From Acidobacteriaceae bacterium (GTDB taxonomy: Bacteria > Acidobacteriota > Terriglobia > Terriglobales > Acidobacteriaceae), in the NCBI GenBank assembly GCA_003134655.1, contig PLBY01000079.1, forward strand, positions 62,001-126,000: a stretch of 64,000 bases of DNA. The letters are read 5' to 3'. Below the pieces are notes generated by a model. It ran no database searches. It saw only the letters and a program-made list of their open reading frames with translations, and was not told where the DNA came from. Positions 14,450 through 19,550 of the stretch are shown in pieces. The position numbers were made by a program, and so were the translations under genes. How positions within the stretch are numbered: position 1 is the stretch's first letter; every line of letters begins with the position of its first letter.

Positions 14450-15574
14450 TCAATTCGTCGGTGAGGTGACCGTTAGGGTGACCGAGGGATTTGCGGTGGT
14501 GGTAGAGCCCGTGTTGCTCGCAGCGTTGCCCTCGGAGTCGACGCCGGTCACGGTGAAAGTGTAGGTATTGTTGGGAGTCACTCCGTTGGGCGTTGTCGTG
14601 GTGGTCGCGGTGTTAGAGCATGCTGGCATCAGGAACAATGCGCCGGTGATCACAAAAAGAGCCAGCAGTCCCCAGGCTTTTCTGGATCGCTTTCCACCCA
14701 CCGCCGCGCCCAGGCCCACCAGTCCCAGCATGGGGATGGTCAGCCACAGAGCGTAGAAGGTCCGGGGAGGAGCCGCGGAACCGATGATTACAGGGCCAAA
14801 CGTGTTGATTGTGATGGTGGAGGTGGCGGATCCCGTTCCGGATACAGGCAAGCTAGTGAGGCCGCTCGGATAAGTGAACAAGCAGATTGGAGGAATTGTG
14901 ACCAACGGGGTGACTGAACTGCAGGAAAGAGTAATCCCTGGTTTGCCCGTTGTGTTATACCCGTTAATCGGATTGACGCTGACGATCCCTTGCCCTCCGT
15001 TACCCGCGGGCACGGAGGTGGGCGTCACGGCTCTAGTTACGGAGATGGTGAACTGGGGAGCGACCGCCAGAACGGTGACCGTCTGCGCTTGTGTGGTGAC
15101 GGTCTGTGAGCCCGAAGTCCCCGTGATGGTGATGGCGTAAGCAATCGTAGTCGTGTCGAGCTGGGTGGTGATCGTGGCCGAAGCGCTGGCCGGGGCGTTT
15201 ACCGTTGCGGGACTCACCGCGCATGCCGGAGGATCCGTAAAGGTCGACGGTATCACCTGGCAGCTTAGATTGACGGTGCCAGTGAAGCCGCCGACCGACC
15301 CAACGGTAACGATCGCCGACGAAGTACCCTCGGGAGGTACCGCCACGGGCGAAAACGCAGTCGCGTCCAGGGTGAAGCTCTGCGCCGTGGCCGCGGTCGG
15401 TAGGCTCAAGAGTGCCGCCAACAGGCAAAGGGCCGCGAGACTGGTGCGTGCGCCGCGCAGGAAAACCCCAAGCTGCGACGGCTGGGATTGCGACGGATCG
15501 GACTTCATTCCGGACCTGGTTTCGGACTTCATTTCGGACGTTGTTCGTGACTTCGAGGTTTCGGATTTCAACAT
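14450..15574 (-). CDS. Secreted Ig-like protein with C-terminal membrane module
   Basis: A 374-residue exported protein from the ATG at 15574; later ATGs at 15532 and 15508 would shorten an odd N-terminal extension that precedes the signal peptide (LAALCLLAALLSLPTAATA). Two Ig-like domains follow (FTLDATAFSPVAVPPEGTSS with VNLSCQV, and FTISVTRAVTPTSVPAGNGG with GITLSC). The C-terminal part repeats a layout seen in the next gene: FYALWLTIPMLGLVGLG, a basic stretch GKRSRKAW, a second helix ending LFLMPAC, a T-rich linker and a last strand domain (YTFTVTGVDSEG to SVTLTVTSP). Probable cell-envelope location. The DNA of the extension contains four 12-bp tandem units. Confidence 0.75.
   Translation of the reverse strand: MLKSETSKSRTTSEMKSETRSGMKSDPSQSQPSQLGVFLRGARTSLAALCLLAALLSLPTAATAQSFTLDATAFSPVAVPPEGTSSAIVTVGSVGGFTGTVNLSCQVIPSTFTDPPACAVSPATVNAPASASATITTQLDTTTIAYAITITGTSGSQTVTTQAQTVTVLAVAPQFTISVTRAVTPTSVPAGNGGQGIVSVNPINGYNTTGKPGITLSCSSVTPLVTIPPICLFTYPSGLTSLPVSGTGSATSTITINTFGPVIIGSAAPPRTFYALWLTIPMLGLVGLGAAVGGKRSRKAWGLLALFVITGALFLMPACSNTATTTTTPNGVTPNNTYTFTVTGVDSEGNAASNTGSTTTANPSVTLTVTSPTN
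15498..15545. repeat. Four tandem 12-bp units
   Basis: TCGGACTTCATT (15498-15509), CCGGACCTGGTT (15510-15521), TCGGACTTCATT (15522-15533) and TCGGACGTTGTT (15534-15545) follow each other without gap. They lie at the 5' end of the Ig-like gene, on its N-terminal extension. Confidence 0.85.
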
Positions 15575-15821
15575 GAGCAGGTTTCGGTTCAACTAGCTTC
15601 GATTCCCAAGACATCCCAAAGGCTGCCCGGCTGACGGTAAACCGTCCATCGCCACACCCGCAGGGATGACCAACGCCAACGGCGCAAAAATCCACTTCAT
15701 TTTACCGCAGACATTTCCCGCAGAGCCACGGGACACAGTTCCCCGGAATCACTCCCACGGAATCTTCCATACTACCATCATGCGGTGATGAAGCCGGGGT
15801 GGGCTGTCCGGTGCAAAGAAG

Positions 15822-15853
15822 AACGGCCGTCTCCCGCGTGGAAGACGGCCGTT
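15822..15853 (-). terminator. Terminator-like hairpin after the SBBP gene
   Basis: An 11-bp perfect stem AACGGCCGTCT (15822-15832) / AGACGGCCGTT (15843-15853) lies 18 bases beyond the stop of the minus-strand gene 15871-18681. On that strand it is followed by CTTCTTTGC. Confidence 0.7.
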
Positions 15854-15870
15854 GGGATTGGTGCGTGGTG

Positions 15871-18681
15871 CTAGTTGACGCTGAGGCTGAGCGCCGGGCT
15901 CACCGAGTGCGTCAGCGCAGAGTTGACGGAGTCGGTCCCTGTGACCGTCACCGTGTAGCTGCCCTTGGGAGTGCAACCCGTGCAGCCGCCGCCACCTCCG
16001 CCGTTGTTGCTGCTGCCACCGCAAGCCGGCAGGAAGAACAGGGCAGCCATGATCAGGCCAAGAAGCAGGAAGCCCAGCAGTTTCTTCCTCCGCGAGTCAG
16101 CGGTGCTGAAGCGCATGCCCACCAGTGACAATCCAACGACCGGCAGCCACATGGCATAGAACACTCCGCCCGACCCTTGGTTCATGGCATGCGCCGCGCC
16201 GGTTGTGCTTACCGTTAACGTCGACGTGCCCGCTCCACCCGTGACCGCAGTGGGGATCGGACAGGTAGGGAGAGGTGATCCACCGCTGACGCTGGCCACC
16301 GAGCACGTGAAGTTCACTGTGCCCGTATAGCCGTTCGCCGCAGTGATCGTGATGGTCGAGGTTGAAGAACCGCCCTGAGTAACCGCAGCGAGCGCCGTGC
16401 CAGCGATGGTGAAGTCGGGGCCAGTCGAGGTCGTCGAGTACCTCACAACGTAAGCGTCCGTCCCGCCTTTGTTGGCACTTTGCGAGGCTGATTGCGTGGG
16501 GAAGTCGGTCGACGTGGTGTTCCCGGTTACGTAAATGTTGGCACCGGCGCTGTCAACTGCAAGAGCGCCGATCACGCCGCCGCCGATTGTGTCTTCGTTG
16601 AGAGATCCTCCAAGATAAGTGGAGAAGAGAAGAGTGGAGCCCCCTGCGCTGATCTCGCTGACGAACGCATCGTTCTGTCCTTTGTTGGCGCTCTGCGTCG
16701 GGCTGGCGGTCGGGAAATTCGTGGATGATGTCTGGCCGGTGACGTAGGCGTTCTTATTGCTGTCCAGGGCAATCGCCACGCCCGTGTCATTGCCGCTTCC
16801 GCCCAGGTAAGTGGAATAAACCAACTGCGCGCCCGTAGGATTTAGCTCGGTTACGAACGCGTCCAGAGTGTTGCCACCATAGACAGGCTGAAGTGCAGAC
16901 TTCAGAGGGAAATGAGCGGACGATGAGGTATATCCGGTGACATACGCATCATCGGAGCCGTCAACTGCGATGCCGAGTCCGGTGTCGTTCGATTCACCGC
17001 CCAGGAATGTGGAGTACACATAGCCACCACCGGATGAATTGATCACGGTGACGAAGGCGTCGTACAAGGCTCCATTACAGTTTGCGTCAGTGCCGCATGA
17101 ACCCTGGAAAACGCCAGATGTTTTGGGGAAGTCAGGGCTGTTGGTTCCCCCGGTTACATAAGCGTTCTTCGAGCTATCCACTGCGATCGCGACTGCAAAG
17201 TCATTGTTACTTCCGCCTAGGTATGTGGAATAGTCAAGGGCGCTGCCGTTCGCGCTCAACTTCGTCACGAAACCGTTTGCTGCACCTAAGAGTGTCCCTT
17301 GAATTGGGCTCTGCGTCGGGAAGTCAGTGGACGTAGTGGATCCCGTGATATAAGCGCTTCCTGCGCTATCCAGAGCGACGCCGGTTGCCACATCGGATCC
17401 ACTGCCACCGACAAATGTGCTGTAAGTCAGCGTGGATCCAGTCGCGTTCAGCTCTAGCACAAAAGCATCCACGACACCTTTGAACGTCTGAATTGGGCCC
17501 TGAGTCGGGAAGTCGGAGGAATTCGTGCCCCCAGCTACGAACGCGTTGCCTGACCCATCGACCGCGATAGCGTTGCCGCTGTCGTTGCTAGCGCCGCCGA
17601 TGTAGGTCGAGTAAACTAGCGAACCGGCTGGGGAAAGCTCGGTTACAAACACATCAAAGCCGCCCGCGTTGGTTCCGTGCAGACCGTTCTTGATAGGGAA
17701 ATCAGTTGATTTCGTCTGGCCGGTTACGTAGGCGTTGCCGCTGCCATCCACGGCGATTGCGTACCCGTCGTCCTCGGCGCTACCACCCAGATAAGTCGAA
17801 TAGCTGACCGACGGATCGATCACCAACTCGCGGCTGCGATCGTAATTGCCTAACTCGAACGCGACCTGGTTGTGGGCTTGCAGAACAAAACGCGCATCGA
17901 CCGGTTGGCGGGCTCCGTCTTTCTGTTGGTAGGCAACCGGCTTGTGCAGCAGAACGTCTCCTGCGGCGGACGCGAACACCAGATTTCCAGAATCATCCGT
18001 TGCAATGCGCTTCGCGCCCGAGACGCCGAGCCGGATCGGGGCAACACTTGCGCCCGGAGCGACGATGAAATCGAACTCCAGTTGCTTCCGCACACCGTAG
18101 AACGCCATGTCTACTCCGGGATAAACGTCCCGGTAGGACACACGCGCGTATTGCGCGGCATTCGAATGCCACTGGCTGCGATCATTGCCGATGAAGTAGT
18201 TGCTGTGTCCCGGCAACTGGCTGCCAGCGGCAATCTGCGGCTGCCCGTTTCCGTCCACCAGGTGCAAGTGAATTGCAGCGGTTCGGGTTTTGGACGGCGC
18301 TGTGAAATGGGGTTTGCCATTCACCTGCGTGGCTGCCTGCTCTGAACTCTGCAGCGCGAAGACCGTGTCGTTGGCCGTGAGGAAGACCGTGTAGCCGTTG
18401 CCTCGCGCCATGTACTTCACCTGCGGGTCGGTCTGTCCCTGGTTCGCCTCAAAGGCGAGAGGAAGAGCGCCCAGACTGGCTTGCACCCGGCCGCGCTGTG
18501 CCGCGCTTAGTGCCGGTGCCTGCGCTGCTGCAAGCGGCTTGGCCGCAGAGTTGCCGCTATGCGTGCGCAGACTGGCGGAGCCGGCGATTCCGGCGGCGGC
18601 TAGTACCGCGACCGCGACGATCGAGCCGAGGCCGACCCAACCAGCAGGCATGAATTTTTTTGAGGCAAATGACTTGGACAC
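15871..18681 (-). CDS. Large secreted SBBP beta-propeller-repeat protein with C-terminal membrane module
   Basis: A 936-residue exported protein starting at a GTG (18681) with an AGGAGG ribosome site 6 bases before it. A signal/anchor helix (GSIVAVAVLAAAGIAGSA) is followed by the conserved N-terminal domain of SBBP proteins (LPLAFEANQGQTDPQVKYMA, then VDMAFYGVRKQLEFDFIV). About nine SBBP repeats come next, each near YSTYLGGSxxDxGxAIAVDxSGNAYVTG (residues about 280-720). The last part is an Ig-like strand domain and the module FYAMWLPVVGLSLVGMRF, a helix ending LFFLPAC, a G-rich linker and a final domain ending LSLSVN. The role is unknown; cell-surface adhesion or polymer binding is plausible. 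A candidate promoter lies at 18816-18844. Confidence 0.85.
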   Translation of the reverse strand: MSKSFASKKFMPAGWVGLGSIVAVAVLAAAGIAGSASLRTHSGNSAAKPLAAAQAPALSAAQRGRVQASLGALPLAFEANQGQTDPQVKYMARGNGYTVFLTANDTVFALQSSEQAATQVNGKPHFTAPSKTRTAAIHLHLVDGNGQPQIAAGSQLPGHSNYFIGNDRSQWHSNAAQYARVSYRDVYPGVDMAFYGVRKQLEFDFIVAPGASVAPIRLGVSGAKRIATDDSGNLVFASAAGDVLLHKPVAYQQKDGARQPVDARFVLQAHNQVAFELGNYDRSRELVIDPSVSYSTYLGGSAEDDGYAIAVDGSGNAYVTGQTKSTDFPIKNGLHGTNAGGFDVFVTELSPAGSLVYSTYIGGASNDSGNAIAVDGSGNAFVAGGTNSSDFPTQGPIQTFKGVVDAFVLELNATGSTLTYSTFVGGSGSDVATGVALDSAGSAYITGSTTSTDFPTQSPIQGTLLGAANGFVTKLSANGSALDYSTYLGGSNNDFAVAIAVDSSKNAYVTGGTNSPDFPKTSGVFQGSCGTDANCNGALYDAFVTVINSSGGGYVYSTFLGGESNDTGLGIAVDGSDDAYVTGYTSSSAHFPLKSALQPVYGGNTLDAFVTELNPTGAQLVYSTYLGGSGNDTGVAIALDSNKNAYVTGQTSSTNFPTASPTQSANKGQNDAFVSEISAGGSTLLFSTYLGGSLNEDTIGGGVIGALAVDSAGANIYVTGNTTSTDFPTQSASQSANKGGTDAYVVRYSTTSTGPDFTIAGTALAAVTQGGSSTSTITITAANGYTGTVNFTCSVASVSGGSPLPTCPIPTAVTGGAGTSTLTVSTTGAAHAMNQGSGGVFYAMWLPVVGLSLVGMRFSTADSRRKKLLGFLLLGLIMAALFFLPACGGSSNNGGGGGGCTGCTPKGSYTVTVTGTDSVNSALTHSVSPALSLSVN

Positions 18682-18952: not shown

Positions 18953-19550
18953 TCACGGTACTGTGACGATAACACCCGTACACGCTTTCGGGCCAACCCT
19001 GCGGTAGCTATGCAGCACCGCGGAATCGAAATAAATCGAGTCTTCGGGTTCCAGCACGAATTCTTCGCTGCCAATCTTGATCGCCAGCGACCCTTTGATC
19101 ACGTAGAGAAACTCGACCCCCGCGTGCTGGTGCGGCTTGAGTTTCTCCAGCGGAACCTCTTGAAAATCCGCCAGAAAGGCGCTCAGTTTGCGCTCGGTGG
19201 CGCGGTAGTCGAGGCACTCGAAGTAGTACTGCACATCGGGCGTGCCCGGCCTTTCGGGGAAGCGCACGCGCTCTCCCTTGCGCACCAAGTCCGACCACCC
19301 GGCGTTTGCGTTCGTCGGTAAAGAAGTAGTCGAGACCGACCCCAAAGACCATGGCGATGCGCAAGAGTGTGGGCAGAGTGGGAAACAACTTTCCTCTTTC
19401 CAGCTTCGACAGCAAGGCCGCCGAGAGGCCCGTATGCTTGCCCAATTCCACCAGTCCCATGCTCTTACGGAGCCGCATGGAGCGCAGTTTTTCGCCAATC
19501 GAATACCGTCCCAAGCCTTCGGAAATCGTGTCGGTTATGCCAGTTGTCAT
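18953..19550 (-). pseudogene. XRE-cupin transcriptional regulator, frame-disrupted
   Basis: The ATG at 19550 opens a helix-turn-helix frame (KLRSMRLRKSMGLVELGKHT, then GLSAALLSKLERGKLFPTLP) that continues to LDYFFTDERKRRVV. The natural continuation VRKGERVRFPERP and the whole cupin (KPHQHAGVEFLYVIKGSLAI to VLEPEDSIYFDS and VLHSYRRVG) lie in the next frame, ending at 18953. One extra base in GGTCGGAC at about 19290-19297 explains the break; removing it gives a normal 198-residue HTH-XRE plus cupin_2 regulator. Such regulators bind a small ligand in the cupin and act near transport or catabolic genes. Either the gene is recently inactivated or the assembly has an indel. Confidence 0.75.

Follow-up and report, generated by a model that had tools for sequence, protein, structure and literature searches.

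Two neighbouring genes on the minus strand of a 64,000-nucleotide stretch of Acidobacteriaceae DNA (GenBank assembly GCA_003134655.1, contig PLBY01000079.1, positions 62,001 to 126,000; hereafter the window) raise the question of what the shared end of their products is for. The proteins, of 936 and 380 amino acids in the list of open reading frames (15871-18681 and 14450-15592), both finish with an FYA[ML]WL motif, a hydrophobic helix (helix 1), a basic stretch, a second hydrophobic stretch, a PAC motif, a linker and final strands. The initial annotation had pointed to such a common C-terminal series, and the motifs do follow one another in this order in both tails, which are 33% identical. 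We find that each tail is one immunoglobulin (Ig)-like domain, with a membrane hairpin sitting between its first four strands and its final β-hairpin. The second helix of that hairpin appears from its sequence to be a lipoprotein (type II) signal peptide relocated to the interior of the chain, and the tail is probably a lipid anchor within a split Ig domain, made by way of this internal type II signal and a cut by LspA. The features of the two genes, in window coordinates, are as follows.

15871..18681, minus strand: 936-residue secreted protein with N-terminal signal, DUF7948, SBBP β-propeller repeats and split Ig tail (open reading frame and Pfam)
16186..16416, minus strand: 936-residue protein, split Ig-like domain, half 1 (residues 756-832; model positions 1-78; independent E-value 2.7e-12)
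16108..16161, minus strand: 936-residue protein, membrane helix 1, beginning FYAMWLPVVGLSLVGM (residues ~841-858), read as stop-transfer (motif position and AlphaFold)
16081..16095, minus strand: 936-residue protein, basic stretch SRRKK, taken as the cytoplasmic n-region (sequence and family K/R pattern)
16024..16080, minus strand: 936-residue protein, putative internal type II signal, h-region to position -1, LLGFLLLGLIMAALFFLPA (sequence and family lipobox statistics)
16021..16023, minus strand: 936-residue protein, lipobox Cys, residue 887 (the only invariant column in 109 tails)
15973..16020, minus strand: 936-residue protein, Gly/Ser-rich linker behind the Cys (residues 888-903; sequence)
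15874..15972, minus strand: 936-residue protein, split Ig-like domain, half 2 (residues 904-936), up to the stop codon (independent E-value 3e-5)
14450..15592, minus strand: 380-residue secreted protein with N-terminal signal, one intact Ig-like repeat and split Ig tail (open reading frame and profile)
15071..15379, minus strand: 380-residue protein, intact Ig-like repeat (residues 72-174; model positions 1-101; independent E-value 2.7e-22), an internal control for the split one
14801..15055, minus strand: 380-residue protein, split Ig-like domain, half 1 (residues 180-264; model positions 1-72; independent E-value 9.4e-7)
14699..14758, minus strand: 380-residue protein, membrane helix 1, FYALWLTIPMLGLVGLGAAV (residues ~279-298; motif and sequence)
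14678..14692, minus strand: 380-residue protein, basic stretch KRSRK (sequence)
14621..14677, minus strand: 380-residue protein, putative internal type II signal, AWGLLALFVITGALFLMPA (sequence and family lipobox statistics)
14618..14620, minus strand: 380-residue protein, lipobox Cys, residue 325 (PACSN being residues 323-327; sequence)
14453..14572, minus strand: 380-residue protein, split Ig-like domain, last strands (residues 341-380; motif positions)

The larger protein matches PF25778 (DUF7948) at residues 77-290 (E 9.7e-67) and PF06739 (SBBP) in seven stretches. In the smaller one the intact Ig-like repeat, for which Pfam gave no match at E 0.1, directly precedes the split repeat. The split was assessed with a hidden Markov model (HMM) built solely from intact repeats lying upstream of modules (22 seeds, one of them the repeat of the 380-residue protein that it scores here). 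This model found both halves of the domain in 101 of 121 tails, and among 198 distinct modules it found half 1 in 196, half 2 in 165 and both in 164; the 198 are 199 less one false row, L127, which is an intact repeat, and L013, an N-terminal lipoprotein, was also dropped (L, G and C numbers are our handles for loci, genomes and contigs). Half 1 ends at a median model position of 77 and half 2 starts at a median of 73, with 48-91 amino acids between them; in the 936-residue protein half 2 takes up at model position 76 and runs to 102 over residues 904-932. When the insert was removed by script, a single hit spanned the domain in 139 of the 164 tails, with a median of 50.6 bits as against 37.9 for half 1 and 14.2 for half 2.

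Structure prediction gave the same picture. An AlphaFold2 model of the 936-residue protein's tail, computed from 109 sequences, comprises four strands, then two helices and a closing pair of strands. Both halves have high confidence (predicted local distance difference test, pLDDT, of 83-96 per block over tail residues 1-80 and 89-95 for the strand at 155-165), and helix 1 is at tail residues 93-106, which are protein residues 845-858. Foldseek alone returned no match at E 0.001 or better. VIA-align superposed 95 residues of the model, from its range 4-182, on a continuous Ig-like domain, residues 405-502 of 2ber, at 2.1 Å and Z 10.8; since half 1 amounts to only some 77 residues, this alignment must draw on both halves. 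What had at first been called a last strand domain is therefore half of an Ig-like domain, the two-half profile matches and the 2ber alignment together ruling out an independent one.

In three tails (L165, L190 and L012) a whole additional domain stands behind the Cys and ahead of the last Ig strands, which all three retain. The extra domain is fn3 in L165 and L190 (46.6 and 36.5 bits, cut-off 25) and the NCBIfam 'choice-of-anchor Z repeating domain' NF058597 in L012. Half 2 reaches a pLDDT of 95-97 in the L165 model, of which 96 residues can be superposed on the 2ber domain named above (2.0 Å, Z 12.0). The L012/L212 locus belongs to the genome of the window itself (contig C87), where a pro-kumamolisin protein has NF058597 between its lipobox Cys and its last Ig strands.

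The second half of our answer concerns the Cys, which the initial annotation had likened to a lipobox placed inside the protein. Across 109 tails with a mean identity of 20%, this Cys is the one invariant column, and the residue before it is Gly, Ala or Ser in all of 197 modules (Gly 121, Ala 50, Ser 26), whereas the same three residues make up 20-45% at positions -2 to -14; these statistics leave out L143, whose Cys is misaligned (its sequence reads S-C). Lys and Arg are absent from -12 to -1 and most frequent at -20 to -24, where Asp and Glu reach at most 1%, and the residue right behind the Cys is Gly, Ser, Ala, Asn or Thr and never Asp. In an earlier count of 120 tails, superseded by the 197-module statistics (L004 left out; Cys mispicked in two, L042 and L110), the loop had a net charge of +2 to +7 in 119, and 13-17 residues separated the last basic residue from position -3 in 109. 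The part behind the Cys is no shorter than 34 residues in any of the 197 modules. Both window proteins have a small residue at -1, reading A-C, and their signals are internal rather than N-terminal, the Cys standing at 887 of 936 and at 325 of 380. Two of the motifs named at the outset call for small corrections: L-x-PAC describes the 380-residue protein (L-M-PAC) but not the 936-residue one (F-L-PAC), and the YAxWL helix, present in both window tails, marks only a subgroup, since [YF]A.W falls within the first 70 residues of 22 of the 198 modules. Helix 1 has no invariant or nearly invariant columns in the 109 tails. Ahead of it lies a Pro-rich stretch (residues 828-840 in the 936-residue protein, for example) with 12% Pro family-wide, in which one column of a gappy alignment region is Pro in 172 of 198 modules, but around which these 198 show no fixed motif.

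A comparison with ordinary lipoproteins came from the subthreshold matches of the NCBIfam model NF058595, introduced below, in the phylum of genome G439 (those from G439 itself not counted). Of the 20 best stop-free ones, 19 read as N-terminal lipoprotein signals, 17 of them by script (a Met 19-34 residues ahead of A/G/S-Cys) and two more (L235 and L247) on reading. In L243 and L246 the script stopped at an A-C that lies 6-7 residues ahead of the lipobox Cys, and L242 is without a Met. Another control, of 16 N-terminal lipoprotein sequences from the fetched loci, was not used; several of these were plainly not lipoproteins and position -1 was unrestricted.

The module is a catalogued family. 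Both window tails exceed the curated cut-off of one NCBIfam model, NF058595 ('invert_tail', lipo-invert putative C-terminal anchoring domain), with 48.9 and 72.5 bits against a cut-off of 37, and thus do not resemble each other by chance; in the 380-residue protein the match covers residues 256-354 (model positions 1-99). Our own module profile stops 1 and 5 residues before the end of the 936- and 380-residue proteins respectively, as befits a C-terminal position. NCBIfam has therefore already named the family as a putative anchor. We found no paper under the name invert_tail or lipo-invert, and literature searches covering titles, the starts of abstracts and few subscription papers returned nothing on this tail; neither the Ig domain split by a membrane hairpin nor the internal type II signal was met in the literature examined.

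A profile search showed a lineage-wide family rather than a feature of two genes. Matches over the cut-off occur in 36 of 297 genomes of the phylum (at most 14 candidates scored per genome) and in 88 of 151 genomes of the class. Among the matches listed for the phylum sample, 31 of 31 genomes of the own Genome Taxonomy Database family have matches; the match-less genomes, ordered by kinship, start outside that family, with 131 more beyond those listed. The own genome and 20 relatives all have matches at E 0.001, 3-22 each with weak ones included. Among the named carriers are Terriglobus albidus, Granulicella mallensis, G. rosea, Silvibacterium bohemicum and Paracidobacterium acidisoli, and the module was present at 73 of 79 fetched named loci. 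Within the phylum, strong matches of 81 and 75 bits also came from L027 and L031 (genomes G216 and G272, family f42), which lie outside the own class. Spread into the phyla of G439 and G438 was considered and rejected: the sole genomes over the cut-off (1 of 299 and 1 of 296 respectively) are the centre genomes themselves, picked for carrying a module. Three metagenome-assembled genomes (MAGs) bear unexpected labels. L142 (G437), labelled Rhodanobacteraceae, has 17 module matches, a number that would fit an acidobacterium, and is probably mislabelled; L160, labelled Ignavibacteria, with two modules on one contig, and L164, labelled Gammaproteobacteria, with one strong module, may reflect misbinning or transfer. 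A search of viral contigs with a single protein as query gave none with the module.

The carriers look secreted and not cytoplasmic. A script called an N-terminal hydrophobic signal in 64 of the 72 whose frame starts inside the fetched DNA; six of these 64 signals loosely match a lipobox, and of the eight carriers without a called signal, two (L096 and L161) have one when read by eye. The own genome has 16 NF058595 matches at E 0.001, of which 11 exceed the cut-off, each in a separate protein. Among the weak ones, L012 is a further piece of the L011 protein; L013, L014 and L016 look like lipoproteins of the ordinary N-terminal kind, and L015 reads as the end of an intact Ig repeat. Besides the window pair, a Pfam scan of nine open frames, two of them incomplete, gave three DUF7948/SBBP propellers, one FG-GAP protein, two pro-kumamolisin proteins, one weak GH71 and two proteins with no Pfam match.

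The two window genes also travel together. Their relatives adjoin each other in L156, L165, L172 and L167 (L020 shows identities equal to L167 and is probably the same organism), and L198 has the small gene plus a fragment of the large one. Identities at these pair loci are 50-60% over long stretches for the 936-residue protein and 37-53% for the 380-residue one. If a duplication lies behind the pair, it is old; a local duplication of two adjacent genes as the source of the shared tail is ruled out by the lineage-wide module together with the conserved pair. That the SBBP-propeller gene and the 380-residue Ig gene are kept as neighbours suggests that their products work together.

For processing, the candidates are the ordinary Lgt and the single LspA of each genome. 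In the own genome and the 20 relatives, LspA is encoded exactly once in 21 of 21, with no extra copies; Lgt was found in 19, the two misses being genomes 86% and 80% complete, and LolA in 20. A co-occurring dedicated processing enzyme, which the initial annotation had looked to for support, did not emerge from these 21 genomes, in which LspA, Lgt, LolA and exosortase were the enzymes searched for. All 21 also encode exosortase (PF09721), which for that reason cannot tell the readings apart, and PEP-CTERM-type sorting probably coexists with the module in these genomes.

How these parts might act together can be set out from the known behaviour of the enzymes. The N-terminal signal would export the chain, and helix 1 would act as a stop-transfer segment that brings it back to the cytosol. 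A type II signal needs its basic end in the cytosol, and for this reason the exported chain would have to re-enter the membrane. Such a helix would need hydrophobicity alone, which fits its alignment without invariant columns. The Arg/Lys cluster and helix 2 would then form a complete type II signal oriented N-in and Cys-out, on which Lgt would add diacylglycerol to the Cys and LspA would cut just ahead of it. Two chains would result: an N-terminal one with the propeller or enzyme, four Ig strands and the hairpin, and a C-terminal one of about 45 residues with the lipidated Cys, the Gly/Ser linker and the last Ig β-hairpin, which would stay docked and so tie the protein to the lipid.

Several observations weigh against this reading and have to be set beside it. 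The topology, lipidation, cleavage, two-chain end state and choice of inner or outer membrane are drawn from known enzymes. The half ends meet within eight model positions in only 114 of the 164 tails, half 2 escapes the intact-repeat model in 33 of 198, and in the 380-residue protein that model misplaces it (positions 19-74, independent E-value 0.005). The profiles that found the modules include half 2 and under-sample tails that do not have it, the AlphaFold models, all made with both halves present, rest on same-family alignments, and the fn3 region of L165 is itself poorly modelled. A strict PROSITE-type lipobox pattern is passed by 155 of 197 modules and failed by both window proteins, which have an unusual Pro at -2. 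The presence of exosortase in the 21 genomes means that another C-terminal processing system may be at work in them. Finally, its hairpin would keep the N-terminal chain in the membrane even after the cut, and the lipid would be redundant unless that hairpin were removed.

A second protease might do precisely this, leaving what could be called a snap-fit anchor, in which the chain is held by non-covalent pairing of its four Ig strands with the lipidated two-strand peptide, which Lol could carry to the outer membrane. We offer this extension tentatively and consider it rather doubtful. Transport to the outer membrane would fit the absence of Asp right behind the Cys in 197 modules, the Asp rule for Lol sorting being one from E. 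coli; no hairpin-removing enzyme was found in the searches of the 21 genomes for LspA, Lgt, LolA and exosortase.

Among the competing explanations, the one that survives best is an uncleaved inner-membrane anchor, in which the hairpin holds the protein beneath a closed Ig domain and the Cys either bears a lipid or just packs at the membrane surface. Two hydrophobic segments joined by a basic loop (net charge +2 to +7 in 119 of 120) would make a stable hairpin, and the Ig domain is complete without any cut in both the AlphaFold model and the 2ber alignment. For a plain anchor, however, an invariant Cys with a Gly, Ala or Ser neighbour in 197 of 197 modules would be superfluous, the h-region is as short as that of a signal peptide (13-17 residues in 109 of 120), and LspA, encoded in all 21 genomes, cuts lipidated lipoboxes by default. 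We regard this explanation as unlikely. Sorting of the PEP-CTERM or MYXO-CTERM type, with an exosortase, CPBP or rhomboid-like enzyme cutting at helix 1 and the basic cluster and the remainder discarded or secondary, seems improbable. The shape of helix 1 with its Arg cluster, the exosortase in 21 of 21 genomes and the Pro-rich stretch ahead of the helix would suit it, as would the parallel with MYXO-CTERM, whose invariant Cys is likewise predicted to carry a lipid (PMC11980579). Yet the strictly conserved features come after helix 1, the Pro lies in no fixed motif, the protein continues beyond the Arg cluster, and the only other anchor-type match of the 380-residue protein is choice-of-anchor S, at 13.5 bits against a cut-off of 70. 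A release device, in which the LspA cut would separate the chains and free the main protein or yield the lipopeptide as product, is very improbable, for although the cut would fall within a folded domain and the C-terminal chain has a further domain of its own in three tails, that chain keeps at least 34 residues behind the Cys throughout and its last Ig strands even behind extra domains, which suggests that docking is needed, and the N-terminal chain retains its own hairpin.

The lipid anchor within a split Ig domain is thus the reading that we prefer. If it is true, the ordinary enzymes of lipoprotein processing use a signal within the protein and divide a folded domain, and a protein with a normal N-terminal signal receives its lipid at the opposite end. 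It would also supply a location rule for envelope proteins, 11 of them in the own genome, which would probably escape predictors confined to the N-terminus, and a split Ig tag ready for use. Should the snap-fit step hold as well, standard lipoprotein enzymes would provide a C-terminal lipid anchor, and with it a general display system in Acidobacteriaceae and related families. The earlier proposal of a surface sorting or anchoring signal unlike LPXTG or PEP-CTERM stands as far as a lineage-wide C-terminal module on secreted proteins goes, but surface sorting itself is not supported.

Elsewhere in the window, at 18953-19550, a helix-turn-helix/cupin-type regulator, identified by reading, seems split over two frames (open reading frames 19008-19550 and 18953-19498), which seems to be a frameshift or an assembly error.

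Compared with known systems, the tail is closest to NF058595, which describes the same module with a profile that starts at the last strand ahead of the hairpin, and whose one-line description gives neither a mechanism nor a split Ig domain. With bacterial lipoproteins, the substrates of Lgt, LspA, Lnt and Lol, it shares a basic n-region, an h-region, Gly, Ala or Ser at -1, the Cys and a Gly/Ser linker, but its signal is internal, near the C-terminus, and stands behind another helix and a separate N-terminal signal. PEP-CTERM proteins have a PEP motif, a single helix and a short basic end, and LPXTG proteins an LPXTG motif ahead of a helix and a basic end. The exosortase and sortase systems that go with these have in common with our tails a C-terminal envelope-anchoring signal made of a hydrophobic helix and a basic cluster; unlike them, the window tails have no PEP or LPXTG motif ahead of the helix and continue into Ig strands, and neither model is among their NCBIfam matches at E up to 1. 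The MYXO-CTERM/myxosortase system resembles the tail in being a C-terminal module with a helix, an Arg cluster and an invariant Cys predicted to be lipidated, but the order, as described in PMC11980579, is reversed: there the Cys precedes the helix and the Arg cluster comes at the end, whereas here the Cys lies behind helix 2 and is followed by half a domain. If the cut occurs, the arrangement would also recall donor-strand complementation and the split Ig domains of pili, in which an Ig fold is completed by a strand from another chain, with the difference that a single gene product would here supply both pieces, a signal peptidase would separate them and the donor would bear a lipid.

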